Positions 4,957-37,491 of a stretch of 64,000 nt of DNA are shown here, piece by piece. How positions within the stretch are numbered: the first letter of the stretch is position 1; every line of letters begins with the position of its first letter. The notes beneath the pieces are model-generated. The model saw only the letters and a program-made list of their open reading frames with translations, ran no database searches and was not told the DNA's origin. The DNA lies in the NCBI GenBank assembly GCA_021772775.1, contig JAJFLH010000027.1:62001-126000 (forward strand), read 5' to 3'. The position numbers were made by a program, and so were the translations under genes. This stretch comes from Mariprofundus sp. GTDB taxonomy: Bacteria > Pseudomonadota > Zetaproteobacteria > Mariprofundales > Mariprofundaceae.

Positions 4957-5154
4957 ATGCGCAGCTATATTCGTACTCCCCTAATGTTAGTCATGCTGCC
5001 CTGTGTGATGGCAGCATGCAGTCCAACGGTGACGATTGCACCTCCTGACAAACCCATTACGATCAATATGAATATCAAAATTGAGCATGAAATCAGTGTG
5101 AAAGTAGATAAAGAGTTGGAAAATGTCCTGTCTGAAGACAGCGGCCTGTTCTGA
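4957..5154 (+). CDS. ynbE: YnbE-like outer-membrane lipoprotein
   Basis: A 65-residue lipoprotein with a signal segment ending in MAAC, then a short conserved body (TVTIAPPDKPITINMNIKIE, followed by a VDKEL end) that is diagnostic of YnbE. In E. coli YnbE sits in the outer membrane, is thought to stack by beta-strand addition and contacts YdbH, completing the lipid bridge. I chose the ATG at 4957 rather than the GTG at 4948, because the GAGGTG at 4945-4950 is then a correctly spaced ribosome binding site. The position between ydbH and ydbL supports the call strongly. Confidence 0.9.
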   Translation: MRSYIRTPLMLVMLPCVMAACSPTVTIAPPDKPITINMNIKIEHEISVKVDKELENVLSEDSGLF

Positions 5155-5168
5155 GTAAGGAGTTAGAG

Positions 5169-5522
5169 ATGCGAGGCAAACATATTATTTTCCGTTTAAT
5201 GGCTGCGTTGGCAGTGAGTCTAACCATGATGGTGGCAGGCGTAGGTAGTGCTTGGTCGGCGGATCTTCGCAGTGCCAAAGCTGCTGGTCAGATTGGTGAG
5301 CAGCCCAATGGTTACCTGGGTATCGTGACTTCTGCTTCGGGCGATGTTCAAGCTCTGGTTAAGACGATTAACCTGAAACGCAAGGATGTATACCAAAAAA
5401 TTGCCGGTAAAAACGGCACATCTCTGAATGCCGTTGAGCAGATGGCTGGTAAAAAAGCAATGGCTAAAACGCCGTCAGGACAGTTTGTTCGCTCAGCATC
5501 GGGAGCATGGCAGAGGAAATAA
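5169..5522 (+). CDS. ydbL: YdbL family (DUF1318) periplasmic protein
   Basis: A 117-residue secreted protein with a signal peptide ending near GSAWSA, followed by the DUF1318 pattern: an LRSAKAAGQIGEQPNGYLG block, a VNLKRK-like helix (here TINLKRKDVYQKIA) and GTSLNAVEQMAGKKA. In E. coli YdbL is a periplasmic factor that acts on the YdbH-YnbE bridge and appears to limit excessive YnbE polymerisation. The AAGGAG just upstream of the ATG and the 14-base gap from ynbE show it is the third gene of the operon. A terminator follows immediately. Confidence 0.9.
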   Translation: MRGKHIIFRLMAALAVSLTMMVAGVGSAWSADLRSAKAAGQIGEQPNGYLGIVTSASGDVQALVKTINLKRKDVYQKIAGKNGTSLNAVEQMAGKKAMAKTPSGQFVRSASGAWQRK

Positions 5523-5524
5523 CA

Positions 5525-5547
5525 GGGCTTTTCAAAAAGCCTTTTTT
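5525..5547 (+). terminator. Terminator of the ydbH-ynbE-ydbL operon
   Basis: A GGCTTT...AAAGCC hairpin is followed by six Ts, directly after the ydbL stop codon. It separates the envelope operon from the aminotransferase gene. Confidence 0.75.
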
Positions 5548-5637
5548 GAGCTTGCTCAGGCATGTCTGAGTAGATTTAAGTTTAGTCCGACAGCCTCCTA
5601 TGCAGCATTTATCCAGGACTCTTGCTATCCTCCGCCC

Positions 5638-6786
5638 ATGCGCAGGATAGATAAAATAGAACCGTTTCGGGTGATGCAGTTGCTTGAACGGGCCAAAGAG
5701 CTGGAAGCATCGGGTCGCAAGATCATTCATATGGAGATCGGTGAGCCGGATTTCCCCACGCCCGCATCGGTGATCGAAGCGGCGCATCAACGCTTGGATG
5801 GGGGCGATAACTTTTATACCCCTTCAACCGGTAATCCGCAGCTGCAAACAGCCTTGTCTGATTGGTATCAAAGAGAATATGGTGTTGATGTTGCAGCTGA
5901 ACGTATTTTAATCACCCCAGGCACTTCGGGGGCATTTAGTCTGCTCTATGCTGTGCTGCTGGAGGCAGGGGAGTCGGTGCTGTTGTCTGATCCGGGCTAT
6001 CCCTGTCAGCGTAACTTTATCCGTTTGGCCGGTGCTGAACCCATCAATGTGCCGGTTGGCCCGGAGAGTAAATATCATCTCTCCGCCGCTCTGTTTGAGC
6101 AGCACTGGCAGCAGAATACACGCGCTGCCGTGGTCATTAACCCATCCAATCCGACCGGTACAATGATTGATGATAAGCAGTTGGAAAAGCTTGCGCTATC
6201 TTGCCGTGAGCGGGGTGGTTATCTGATCTCAGATGAGCTCTACCATGGTTTGAGCTATGGTGTGAAATCACGTAGTGCACTTGAGTTTGATGATCATGCG
6301 GTTGTGGTGAATGGTTTTTCGAAACGCTGGGCTATGACCGGCTGGCGCCTTGGTTGGGTGATTGTGCCTGAAACACTGATCAATGCCTGTCGGCGGGTGA
6401 TGCAGAATATCTTTATTGCAGCTCCAACACTCTCTCAACATGTCGGTATCACAGCTTTGCAGGCTGAAGAAGAAACAGAAGCGATGCGATGCGCTTATGA
6501 TGAGCGCCGCAGCCTGTTACTGGCGGCTCTTCCCAAACTCGGTTTTGATATTGTGGTGGAGCCTCAGGGGGCTTTTTATATTTATGCCAATGTGAGTCGC
6601 ATTACCGATAATGCCAAATTGTTCTGCTGGGATATGCTGGAACAGGCGGGGGTAGCGATTACGCAGGGAGAGGACTTTGGCGTTTACCGGGCTGATAGCC
6701 ATGTGCGCTTCTCTTATGCTGCCAGTTTGGATGATATCCGAGAGGGAGTTCGTCGCATTGAAAATTATTTAAAGGTCGTTGAATGA
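5638..6786 (+). CDS. Pyridoxal-phosphate aminotransferase, class I/II
   Basis: A 382-residue fold-type I aminotransferase. Visible family marks are GEPDFPTP near the N-terminus, the NPSNPTGT loop, SDELYHGL and the cofactor-binding lysine in GFSKRWAMTGWRLGW. It would transfer an amino group between an amino acid and a 2-oxo acid in the cytoplasm. The substrate cannot be read from sequence; aspartate- or alanine-type use is possible. The frame stays open upstream to 5428, but homology begins at the ATG at 5638 (MRRIDKIEPFRVM), and the earlier stretch overlaps ydbL and its terminator. No good ribosome binding site precedes it. It ends one base before pdxB, so the two are probably cotranscribed. 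Confidence 0.9.
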   Translation: MRRIDKIEPFRVMQLLERAKELEASGRKIIHMEIGEPDFPTPASVIEAAHQRLDGGDNFYTPSTGNPQLQTALSDWYQREYGVDVAAERILITPGTSGAFSLLYAVLLEAGESVLLSDPGYPCQRNFIRLAGAEPINVPVGPESKYHLSAALFEQHWQQNTRAAVVINPSNPTGTMIDDKQLEKLALSCRERGGYLISDELYHGLSYGVKSRSALEFDDHAVVVNGFSKRWAMTGWRLGWVIVPETLINACRRVMQNIFIAAPTLSQHVGITALQAEEETEAMRCAYDERRSLLLAALPKLGFDIVVEPQGAFYIYANVSRITDNAKLFCWDMLEQAGVAITQGEDFGVYRADSHVRFSYAASLDDIREGVRRIENYLKVVE

Positions 6787-32808: not shown

Positions 32809-34500
32809 TTACTCGCTCAGTGCTGCTTGTGACTGGCGTACAACTTCAAACCATTGCGGTGAATTGGCACTGCCGTGCAGTGGATCGTGTTTGATCACGC
32901 TGTATCGATGCTTGGGCAGCTTCTCTAACCATGTGTTTACCGCATAGGTTTCCTGATCACCACCGGCATGACCGGGATAGGCCAGTATCGAGATGCGTCC
33001 AAGTGGAGCGATGAGTTGAATCGCTGCATCAAGAGCCTGAATGGTGGTCTCTTTCTGCGTAATGACCGTTTTTTCGGCGCGGGGTAGATAACCAAGATTG
33101 AATACAATGAGGTTCACCTTGCCCAAAAACGTGTTGGGAATGTGCTCCAGCATCTGCTCATGCCCACAACAGATGAGTGTTGTGTTATCCGCTACCCCAG
33201 CTTCATTTAATCTTTTTTCTGTGTTGTTGATGGCCTGTTGCTGGATATCGAAGGCAAACAGCTGGCCGCGACTCTTGATCTGATGAGCCAGAAATAGGCT
33301 GTCATGGCCGTTGCCAGCAGTTGCATCAATAGCGATACAATCACCTTGTTTGCATACGCTTAGAATATGGGGCAACAGCATTTGGTGCACCCTGCCAGTT
33401 AATGAAAGTCGGCCTGTCGGTGTGGCTGTTTTGTTTGTGGGGAGTTTGATCCTGCTAATATCTGCTTCGCGGGGAATGGCTGTATTATGCTCTAGGTGTT
33501 GTGCAAAAGCCTGAGCATAGTGCGGGATGAGCATGGAGCCTTTGGAGCCGAAACCGTTGAAGATAGCTATGTGGGAATGCTTCGGGTGAAAGCCGATGAA
33601 AGGATGTTTATCCAGAGTGTTGGGGCGGACACCGGCCTGTTGTACGACAAGATCAAAATGGGGGGCGTCATCGAAGAGTTTCTGCAGCCCGTTTAAAAGT
33701 TCTGTTTTGGCCTCTGGCATGGGGTCAAGGTGGGATAGATCGTGACTGTATGTTGCGCCAGTTTTGTAACGGCCATCGTGTAATGGCAGTAGCCATTTGC
33801 CGCCATTGATGATCTCCTCAGGCAGTGTAGTACTGCTTTTCAGTGTTAGAATTTCTCCTTTGGCTGGCTGAAAAGGCAAGTAGTTAAACCACGGGTTATC
33901 CTTATCCATAAAGCCCTGACAAAAGATGATACGTTTTGCATGGATGTTCTTCCATTCAATACCATGTTCTGAGTGTTTTAGATCGCTGTATTCAAAATGA
34001 GCAGAAATATAACTCTGCTGCTCTATAAAATTGTCACGCAAACTATCCAGCAGTGCATTGGTATCCAGATAGCCTGTTTGCATCTGTTCGCCCAGGCCGT
34101 AGGGGGCCAGTATCGACTCTGCACTGTCGATCTGTTTATCGAGGTAGGGTGCGTAGGCTGAATCCTGACGTCGTTTCTCGAAGTTTTTTTGTTCTTTCTC
34201 ATGTTTGAATATGCGCAACATCGTTTTTTCATGGAAGAGTGTTTGGCCAAGCTCTCTCTCCAATGTTTGATAACATTGACGAGCAGTAGGAATGATATGC
34301 TCAGCCTGCTCCTGCAGCACCATGCGTTGCCCTGTAACGGGATTGAACAGGCCCGCCGCAACTCGGGAGGCTGATGGACTATGTTCATCACAAACAATAG
34401 TGATGTTCTGTCCCAATTTGATGAGTTGATAGCCAAGCAGAGAGCCAGCTAAACCTTGGCCGATGATCAGTGTATCTATATACTTGATAGCTTCGCACAT
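32809..34500 (-). CDS. FAD-dependent oxidase fused to MnmM/YtqB-like methyltransferase
   Basis: A 563-residue two-domain protein. Residues about 1-355 are a DAO-type flavoprotein: IIGQGLAGSLLGYQL binds FAD, ASRVAAGLFNPVTGQRM and GVRPNTLDKHPFIGFHP are typical, and GFGSKGSMLIP closes the site. Residues about 365-563 are a class I SAM methyltransferase with AIDATAGNGHDSLFLA and FNLGYLPRAEKTVITQ, the signature of the YtqB/MnmM family. MnmM methylates nm5s2U to mnm5s2U in tRNA of Gram-positive bacteria; MnmC1-type oxidases make nm5s2U from cmnm5s2U. The fusion could therefore do both last steps, replacing E. coli MnmC, whose domains are in the opposite order and of another methyltransferase family. 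The function is inferred. It lies divergent to dksA. Confidence 0.82.
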   Translation of the reverse strand: MCEAIKYIDTLIIGQGLAGSLLGYQLIKLGQNITIVCDEHSPSASRVAAGLFNPVTGQRMVLQEQAEHIIPTARQCYQTLERELGQTLFHEKTMLRIFKHEKEQKNFEKRRQDSAYAPYLDKQIDSAESILAPYGLGEQMQTGYLDTNALLDSLRDNFIEQQSYISAHFEYSDLKHSEHGIEWKNIHAKRIIFCQGFMDKDNPWFNYLPFQPAKGEILTLKSSTTLPEEIINGGKWLLPLHDGRYKTGATYSHDLSHLDPMPEAKTELLNGLQKLFDDAPHFDLVVQQAGVRPNTLDKHPFIGFHPKHSHIAIFNGFGSKGSMLIPHYAQAFAQHLEHNTAIPREADISRIKLPTNKTATPTGRLSLTGRVHQMLLPHILSVCKQGDCIAIDATAGNGHDSLFLAHQIKSRGQLFAFDIQQQAINNTEKRLNEAGVADNTTLICCGHEQMLEHIPNTFLGKVNLIVFNLGYLPRAEKTVITQKETTIQALDAAIQLIAPLGRISILAYPGHAGGDQETYAVNTWLEKLPKHRYSVIKHDPLHGSANSPQWFEVVRQSQAALSE

Positions 34501-35292: not shown

Positions 35293-37491
35293 ATGATAAA
35301 AAAAATCAATAAGATTTGTGTCTCAGCCGGAATATATTGGCTTGAAATACCTGCTGCGGATATTCGGATTCTGTGTGGATGCCCTGCCGATAGCGTCAAA
35401 CATCTCATACATTCGGGATTAATTGTTTCAGAAGAAGATCACGGCGTAACGTTTGAAACTGGACCTAATGCAATACTGCTTTCCGATACCATGTTACAGC
35501 AGGGGAGTTTTGCCAATATGGCCGAATTCCCTGTTCTACAGATGCTTTATAATCAGGGGATGTTGTTGCCGAATCATCCGAATAACAGTGGAGTAAAACC
35601 AGTATTGATCGGTGCAAAAGAGCAGATTCAGGCTCAAATGAAATATATTTATCGTGGTAACTATGGTTTGGTCTCAACTGAAGAGCTGATGGACGCTGGC
35701 GTAAGCGCTAATGCCGCTGATGAAATGTTGCGTATGAAACTTGCCTTTGCATTTGGTCAAATTCACGAAAGTGAAGATATTCTTGATACATGTATCATCG
35801 AAAAAAAACGTGTGGAGATTCGTGATGGGGTGGGTGTTAAGCGCATTTCTTTGAACGTATTTGAATTTGATTATGAAGATGAGTTAGTTACGATCAATCT
35901 CAATTTGAACTCAAATGAAAAGTACTCATCAACATTCTCGCTTGGCTTTCACGATATTAAACAACAATATTTTTCAGTCATTCATTCCGGTGAGGGTGAT
36001 GGATGGGATGTTCACCGGCCGTCGATGTCCTCAATTATTATGTTTCATGGCAAAATTTTTCTTATCGATGCGGGCCCAAACCTGCCAGAGGTGCTGACGG
36101 CTTTAGGTATTGGCATCAATGAAATTGAAGGTATTTTTCATACACACTCTCATGATGACCACTTTGCAGGCCTGCCTACTCTGATTCGCACAGACCGGAA
36201 ATTGAAATATTTTGCCACCAAGCTGGTTCGCACCTCGGTTACGAAAAAATTATGTGCTCTTCTTGATATGGATGAGAGCCGGTTTTCTGATTATTTTGAT
36301 GTGCAGGATCTGGATTTTGATCGCTGGAATGACGTTAATGGATTGGAAGTGAAGCCGATTTATTCACCACACCCGGTTGAAACGAATGTCTTTATATTCA
36401 GAGCCTTGTGGGAAGGAGGTTATCGTAGTTACGGGCATTTTGCGGATGTCTCTTCGTTCAAGGTGCTAGAGTCCATGCTGTGCAAAGAGGAGTCTAATGA
36501 TGGCATTTCTCAGGCTTTTTATGATCGGGTACGAGATGATTACCTGTTGCCGGTTGATCTGAAAAAAATTGATATTGGTGGTGGTTTGATTCATGGCAAT
36601 GCCGTTGATTTTAAACATGATAAATCGAAGAAAGTTATTCTTGCTCATACCGCGCTGACGTTAAGCGATGAGCAGAAAGAGATCGGTTCGAATGTACCTT
36701 TTGGCTCGGTGGATCAGCTGATTCCTACTCACCATAATTATGGTATGCAGCGGGCATATGAGTTTTTATCGGATGATTTTCCATCGGCTCCGAAACATCA
36801 GCTACGTGTTTTATTGAATAATGAAACGGTAACATTTTCACCGGGGACAATTATGATCAAAGAGGGCGTGGTGAATGATCATCTCTATCTCGTCCTGTCC
36901 GGCTATGTTGAAATGATTGATTCAAAACATCATGCTAAGATAAAATTATATGCCGGTTCCTTATTGGGTGAATTATCGGCCTTACAACGCTGTCCTGCTT
37001 CTCACACCTATCGCACCGAGAGCTATGTACATGCACTCTGTATTTCGAGCCAGCTATATGCGGATTTTGTTCGATTGAATAATCTCTATGATGATATTGA
37101 ACGGCTGGGTGAGAGTTGGCAGTTTTTGGAGAACCTGCCGTTGTTTGATGAGGCGATTTCCCATTTGACCCTGAATAAGATCGTTGATCAGATTGAACTG
37201 GATGTTTATCCGGCTAATCACGTCTTTGGTATGGAGGATAAGCAGCTCTATCTGGTTAAAAAGGGCAGGGTTGATGTGATTGGTGATCGCAGCCTTGAAA
37301 CAATTGAAGCCGGCGACTTTTTTGGTGAAGTCGCTATATTTTTCAATGATATTCGATATCCGCTTATCCAGACATCAGAAGCCTCAGAAATTTATCGTAT
37401 TCCGATTGATATTATCAGGAATATTCCAATATTGAACTGGAAGCTGTTTGAGCGCCACGAGAAACGCGAAAAGCTCTATTCTCGTGGCTAA
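35293..37491 (+). CDS. Metallo-beta-lactamase-fold protein with two cyclic-nucleotide-binding domains
   Basis: A 732-residue soluble protein. Residues about 230-480 are a metallo-beta-lactamase fold with the metal site HTHSHDDHFAGLP near residue 283, further histidines in YSPHPVETN and YGHFADVSS, and the late HTALTL and PTHHNYG. Two Crp-like cNMP-binding domains follow (about 510-620 and 635-730), each with a GELSAL or GEVAIF phosphate cassette (GSLLGELSALQRCPASHTYR, GDFFGEVAIFF). The second lacks the clear R-A pair, so it may not bind ligand. The N-terminal 200 residues are unassigned. A hydrolase gated by a cyclic nucleotide is the natural guess. It stands alone, convergent with the YebC gene. 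Confidence 0.8.
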   Translation: MIKKINKICVSAGIYWLEIPAADIRILCGCPADSVKHLIHSGLIVSEEDHGVTFETGPNAILLSDTMLQQGSFANMAEFPVLQMLYNQGMLLPNHPNNSGVKPVLIGAKEQIQAQMKYIYRGNYGLVSTEELMDAGVSANAADEMLRMKLAFAFGQIHESEDILDTCIIEKKRVEIRDGVGVKRISLNVFEFDYEDELVTINLNLNSNEKYSSTFSLGFHDIKQQYFSVIHSGEGDGWDVHRPSMSSIIMFHGKIFLIDAGPNLPEVLTALGIGINEIEGIFHTHSHDDHFAGLPTLIRTDRKLKYFATKLVRTSVTKKLCALLDMDESRFSDYFDVQDLDFDRWNDVNGLEVKPIYSPHPVETNVFIFRALWEGGYRSYGHFADVSSFKVLESMLCKEESNDGISQAFYDRVRDDYLLPVDLKKIDIGGGLIHGNAVDFKHDKSKKVILAHTALTLSDEQKEIGSNVPFGSVDQLIPTHHNYGMQRAYEFLSDDFPSAPKHQLRVLLNNETVTFSPGTIMIKEGVVNDHLYLVLSGYVEMIDSKHHAKIKLYAGSLLGELSALQRCPASHTYRTESYVHALCISSQLYADFVRLNNLYDDIERLGESWQFLENLPLFDEAISHLTLNKIVDQIELDVYPANHVFGMEDKQLYLVKKGRVDVIGDRSLETIEAGDFFGEVAIFFNDIRYPLIQTSEASEIYRIPIDIIRNIPILNWKLFERHEKREKLYSRG

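Follow-up and report, generated by a model that had tools for sequence, protein, structure and literature searches.

The DNA analysed here, a window of 64,000 nucleotides from Mariprofundus sp., carries a single ATG-started reading frame of 563 aa in which two enzyme domains are joined (Table 1). In Pfam searches the N-terminal part of this protein matches the DAO family (PF01266, 97.5 bits, aa 9-334) and the C-terminal part matches PF06962 (148.4 bits, aa 415-551), the MnmM family under its old name 'rRNA_methylase'. The original prediction of an N-terminal DAO oxidase and a C-terminal MnmM-type methyltransferase is upheld by PF01266 for the first half, and for the second by the NCBIfam MnmM model NF053511, which scores 190.7 bits over aa 381-552 against an equivalog cut-off of 135. 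The fused frame is seen again in four other Mariprofundus assemblies, and separate fused frames are found in one Zetaproteobacteria MAG and one Gammaproteobacteria MAG. This recurrence indicates that the fusion did not arise as an artefact of sequencing. The AF2 model of the protein has a mean pLDDT of 94.8 and a pTM of 0.73, with one disordered linker; these values suggest that each predicted fold can be taken with confidence, but not the arrangement of the two domains.

Table 1. Features of the fused gene, in positions of the window.
Feature	Position	Strand	Basis
Fused gene, DAO-type FAD oxidase + MnmM methyltransferase, 563 aa	32809..34500	-	Recurs in other assemblies
Oxidase half, aa 9-334, glycine-oxidase fold; GxGxxG FAD motif G14/G16/G19	33499..34476	-	PF01266, 97.5 bits; VIA-align
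Arg292 codon	33625..33627	-	Aligned with E. coli MnmC Arg567
GFGSKG motif, aa 316-321	33538..33555	-	Alignment
Interdomain linker, aa 357-365	33406..33432	-	Only stretch with pLDDT <50
MnmM half, aa 381-552	32845..33360	-	NF053511; Foldseek
Catalytic and tRNA-contact residues D400, N468, Y471, K477, Y508, H511	32968..33303	-	Alignment

An in-frame ATG at aa 374 (33379-33381, reverse strand) is preceded by a purine-rich stretch. It could start a shorter, MnmM-only product, which would be without the N-terminal residues of that domain. Elsewhere in the window, the forward strand at 35293-37491 encodes a protein of 732 aa with a metallo-beta-lactamase fold and two cyclic-nucleotide-binding domains, and with a weak likeness to the anti-Pycsar protein Apyc1.

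The C-terminal half is, judging from its sequence, very probably an MnmM methyltransferase for nm5(s2)U34. Foldseek TM-scores by target length (TMt) are 0.90 to 3eey and 0.84 to the MnmM structure 8h1b. Six residues, D400, N468, Y471, K477, Y508 and H511, are the counterparts of D34, N101, Y104, K110, Y141 and H144 in B. subtilis MnmM, and all are kept; mutation of any of these nearly abolishes the activity of the B. subtilis enzyme (PMC9976899). The position of K11, which is also essential in B. subtilis, is apparently occupied by His372, the B. subtilis alignment starting just past it; by extrapolation from the alignment, His372 resembles the situation in S. mutans 3lby and in 3eey. With the equivalog model passed and the six essential residues in place, this half is like MnmM/YtqB of B. 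subtilis, S. aureus and plants. In contrast to the stand-alone MnmM of Bacilli, it is here fused to, or shares an operon with, an FAD oxidase.

In VIA-align comparisons the oxidase half matches glycine oxidase best (Z of 36.6 to 3if9) and reaches a Z of 34.4 to MnmC (3ps9). Glycine oxidase, CmiS2 and MnmC are its nearest folds, and iminodiacetate oxidase is also among the matches; most of these nearest-fold enzymes use glycine or N-substituted glycines. Arg292 is invariant in the oxidase family (79 of 79 members), and glycine oxidase has an Arg at the aligned position, where it is known to bind the substrate's carboxylate. By analogy, Arg292 would be expected to do the same. Eight positions in the oxidase half of bifunctional MnmC are more than 98% conserved (G271, G273, G287, G518, R567, G578, G619 and R653), and all eight are identical in the window protein, although several of them are superfamily-wide. 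The GFGSKG motif is closer to GLGSRG of MnmC1 than to GHYRNG of ThiO. Nonetheless, the half falls below the NCBIfam cut-offs of both models: 83.7 bits against 174.2 for MnmC1 (TIGR03197), and 85.5 bits against 250.8 for ThiO (TIGR02352). That it is the ThiO of the organism was ruled out on this sub-threshold score and on the presence of another gene that meets the ThiO model at 273.2 bits.

In a quick tree the members of the oxidase family form a single clade that is separate from both MnmC1 and ThiO and has a long stem (3.1 changes per column). Constrained trees beat the free tree, by 28 lnL when the clade was joined to MnmC1 and by 26 lnL when it was joined to ThiO, so that the two placements fit about equally well. 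The original prediction had named a grouping with amino acid catabolic enzymes as one outcome that would speak against it; the oxidase half stands apart from DadA, SolA and other such catabolic enzymes in its own clade. The oxidase tree and the MnmM tree each require three changes to the fused state. Oxidase and MnmM have been fused independently three times: in Mariprofundus, in the Zetaproteobacteria MAG (L108) and in the Gammaproteobacteria MAG (L098).

Where the two domains are separate proteins, their genes are usually neighbors. MnmM occurs in 17 of the 36 genomes of the host's family, and the oxidase adjoins it in every one of the 17: six loci are fused, ten have overlapping or abutting genes, and one has a gap of about 0.7 kb. 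Among the family genomes present in both search listings, 17 have both genes and 17 have neither (Fisher p 9e-10, with shared ancestry ignored). The phylum was covered by 398 genomes: 37 have the oxidase (counted at E <= 1e-40), 37 have MnmM and 35 have both. In two of the four genomes with just one of the pair, the hit is a fragment or lies where a contig ends. When contigs were scanned with nothing but the oxidase alignment, 80 oxidase loci came up. In 58 of these mnmM shares the strand of the oxidase (6 fused, 47 overlapping or separated by no more than 60 bases, 5 within 4 kb), and 4 of the remaining 22 stop at a contig edge. The oxidase sits directly upstream of mnmM, usually with the genes overlapping, and such linked loci span Zetaproteobacteria, Methylococcales, other Gammaproteobacteria and one Opitutia MAG (L142). 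In the searched genomes with both oxidase and MnmM, matches to MnmC2 are limited to noise of 21-24 bits.

The linkage has its exceptions. An isolate of Methylovulum psychrotolerans (L122) has kept the oxidase gene, and no MnmM was detected in its genome. In two Opitutales MAGs an MnmM-like gene (about 124 bits) is unlinked, and several Bacteroidota and Verrucomicrobiota have the oxidase with no MnmM nearby. MnmM has also been seen in Pseudomonadota with neither the oxidase nor MnmL alongside (L184, genome G173; and L236, Neisseria gonorrhoeae, where the MnmM reading frame found is short). In Ghiorsea (L111), the oxidase and MnmM genes are separated by an open reading frame at 5064-6104 whose product looks like a cyclic-nucleotide-binding protein. 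Among plasmids, the only relatives matched were stand-alone MnmM.

A comparable arrangement exists in Bacilli. In Enterococcus, Anoxybacillus and Listeria, the gene that overlaps mnmM from upstream carries the annotation of a TIGR01212 radical-SAM protein, which we take to be MnmL (YtqA). MnmL has reportedly been proposed for Gram-positives more recently. It is listed as the alternative to MnmC for the nm5s2U step (PMC12548931). The MnmL-MnmM operon thus resembles the loci described here in that the gene for the supposed cmnm5 to nm5 enzyme overlaps mnmM from upstream; the difference is one of chemistry, FAD in the fusion and radical SAM in Bacilli. Two unrelated enzymes thus occupy one and the same position ahead of mnmM, and of the arguments from gene context this speaks most strongly for nm5U as the product of the oxidase.

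The rest of the wobble pathway was sought in the host genome (3.12 Mb, 99.96% complete). Both mnmG (800 bits) and mnmE (331 bits) are present, about 1.3 kb apart, and a separate ThiO lies over its cut-off (273.2 against 250.8 bits). The MnmC2-type domain PF05430 is absent from the fusion protein and from the host genome; nothing in that genome reaches the MnmC1 cut-off, and the best match to MnmL (TIGR01212) is 29 bits against a cut-off of 180. The original prediction had expected mnmE and mnmG without mnmC, and the genome agrees with it on both counts. A hidden conventional mnmC was ruled out, since neither in the host nor across the 36 genomes of the family does PF05430 rise above noise of 20-25 bits. 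With mnmE and mnmG present and no PF05430, MnmC1 or MnmL over the cut-offs, the fusion is the sole candidate found for both of the last steps. Twelve genomes of the same genus (G002-G005, G007, G010, G013, G016-G018, G021 and G022) are missing the oxidase, MnmM and MnmC2 alike; these organisms may stop at cmnm5(s2)U or take an unknown route.

The fusion is thus most probably a bifunctional tRNA wobble-uridine enzyme that would carry cmnm5(s2)U34 through nm5 to mnm5, the work done in E. coli by MnmC. MnmE and MnmG place a carboxymethylaminomethyl group, an N-substituted glycine, on U34 of tRNA-Lys, tRNA-Glu and tRNA-Gln. The N-terminal FAD half would oxidize the glycine C-N bond, and hydrolysis would then yield glyoxylate and nm5(s2)U34; a glyoxylate-releasing oxidation and hydrolysis of cmnm5U has been proposed for MnmC1 (PMC3648344). 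The amine of nm5(s2)U34 would then be methylated with SAM by the C-terminal MnmM half to form mnm5(s2)U34. What the oxidase half consumes and yields, and the action of both halves on the same tRNA, we infer, whereas the following were observed: the fusion itself, MnmM membership and residues, the presence of mnmE and mnmG, the absence of MnmC2 and MnmL, the conserved operon, the repeated fusion, and the co-occurrence of the two genes.

Other roles for the oxidase half can be envisaged. The MnmM half could be a true nm5(s2)U34 methyltransferase joined, for mere co-expression or metabolic coupling, to an oxidase of a free small molecule such as glycine, sarcosine or another N-alkyl glycine. In keeping with this, the ThiO score is as good as the MnmC1 score and the nearest folds are free glycine oxidases, but the host genome already has a separate ThiO over the cut-off, and the oxidase goes together with MnmM from genome to genome and has been fused to it three times. 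Such a role would also leave no candidate for the conversion of cmnm5 to nm5, since MnmC1 and MnmL are below their cut-offs, and we regard it as improbable. A substrate on U34 other than cmnm5, for example an MnmEG product with another amine, would suit the distance of the oxidase family from MnmC1. MnmEG is able to work with more than one amine; in E. coli it takes ammonium or glycine (PMC9976899). However, Arg292 and the glycine-oxidase fold are in keeping with an N-carboxymethyl group, and the intact nm5U residues of the MnmM domain make nm5U the simplest product of the oxidase; this alternative appears very improbable.

It is more improbable still that the oxidase half is an eraser that strips the methyl group or methylamine from mnm5U34, which would make the fusion a switchable writer and eraser. 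Sarcosine-oxidase-type enzymes do strip N-methyl groups, and they occur among the structural matches, but the conserved Arg292 suits a substrate bearing a carboxylate, and mnm5U has none. Bacilli fill the same operon slot with a forward-pathway enzyme, MnmL, and the host genome would then be left without an MnmC1-like forward enzyme.

If the bifunctional reading is right, the fusion resembles E. coli MnmC (MnmC2-MnmC1) in combining an FAD oxidase with a SAM methyltransferase for an expected conversion of cmnm5(s2)U34 to mnm5(s2)U34. The oxidase folds are similar and the eight most conserved oxidase positions are common to both. MnmC is active on cmnm5(s2)U-tRNA and not on glycine or sarcosine, and its order is methyltransferase first, then oxidase (PMC3648344). 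The fusion differs in that order, with the oxidase first; in its methyltransferase half, which is MnmM and not PF05430; and in an oxidase half that scores below the MnmC1 cut-off and lies in its own clade. It works like MnmC but, by methyltransferase domain, MnmC1 score and domain order, it is not a member of MnmC. The earlier view of an independent fusion with reversed order is therefore sustained, as the methyltransferase is from another family and the oxidase comes first.

The oxidase family may extend beyond organisms with MnmM. Eight of the searched genomes, all labelled Bacteroidota, have the oxidase but not MnmM, and each has a stand-alone PF05430 gene of 70-85 bits. The oxidase of one of them (L119) nests among those of Methylobacter, and this genome may be misbinned. 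An MnmD-type gene adjoining the oxidase was looked for at the Bacteroidota loci and was not found; the two genes share a genome but are not neighbors. The oxidase in a MAG titled Bifidobacterium breve (L156) groups with those of Bacteroidota, and that record is thus probably mislabelled or misbinned. A lead drawn from co-occurrence in a handful of genomes, with no linkage, is that this family may also supply the MnmC(o)-like enzyme that has been missing in Bacteroidota. The broader proposal is that, next to MnmC1 and the radical-SAM MnmL, the oxidase half represents a third family of enzymes, as yet without a name, that oxidize cmnm5(s2)U34, each member serving its lineage's own methyltransferase: MnmM in Zetaproteobacteria, Methylococcales and Opitutia, and a stand-alone MnmC2/MnmD-type enzyme in Bacteroidota. 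The case for and against this proposal seems to us evenly balanced.

The study that identified MnmM (PMC9976899) describes the MnmC(o)-like oxidase as unknown where MnmM occurs, and likewise where mnmC(m) is an orphan, as in Bacteroides; its authors searched for a fusion or operon of oxidase and methyltransferase without success. In the literature searched, no paper describing an oxidase-MnmM fusion was found. The fusion and the operon now give a concrete candidate FAD oxidase family for Gram-negative lineages with MnmM, a flavin enzyme in the operon slot that a radical-SAM enzyme occupies in Bacilli. In Mariprofundus, a genus of iron-oxidizing bacteria, and in two further lineages, the two-step enzyme would have been reassembled, three times in all, with a different methyltransferase and in the opposite order, and its oxidase half is a candidate for a step that in many bacteria still lacks an enzyme.
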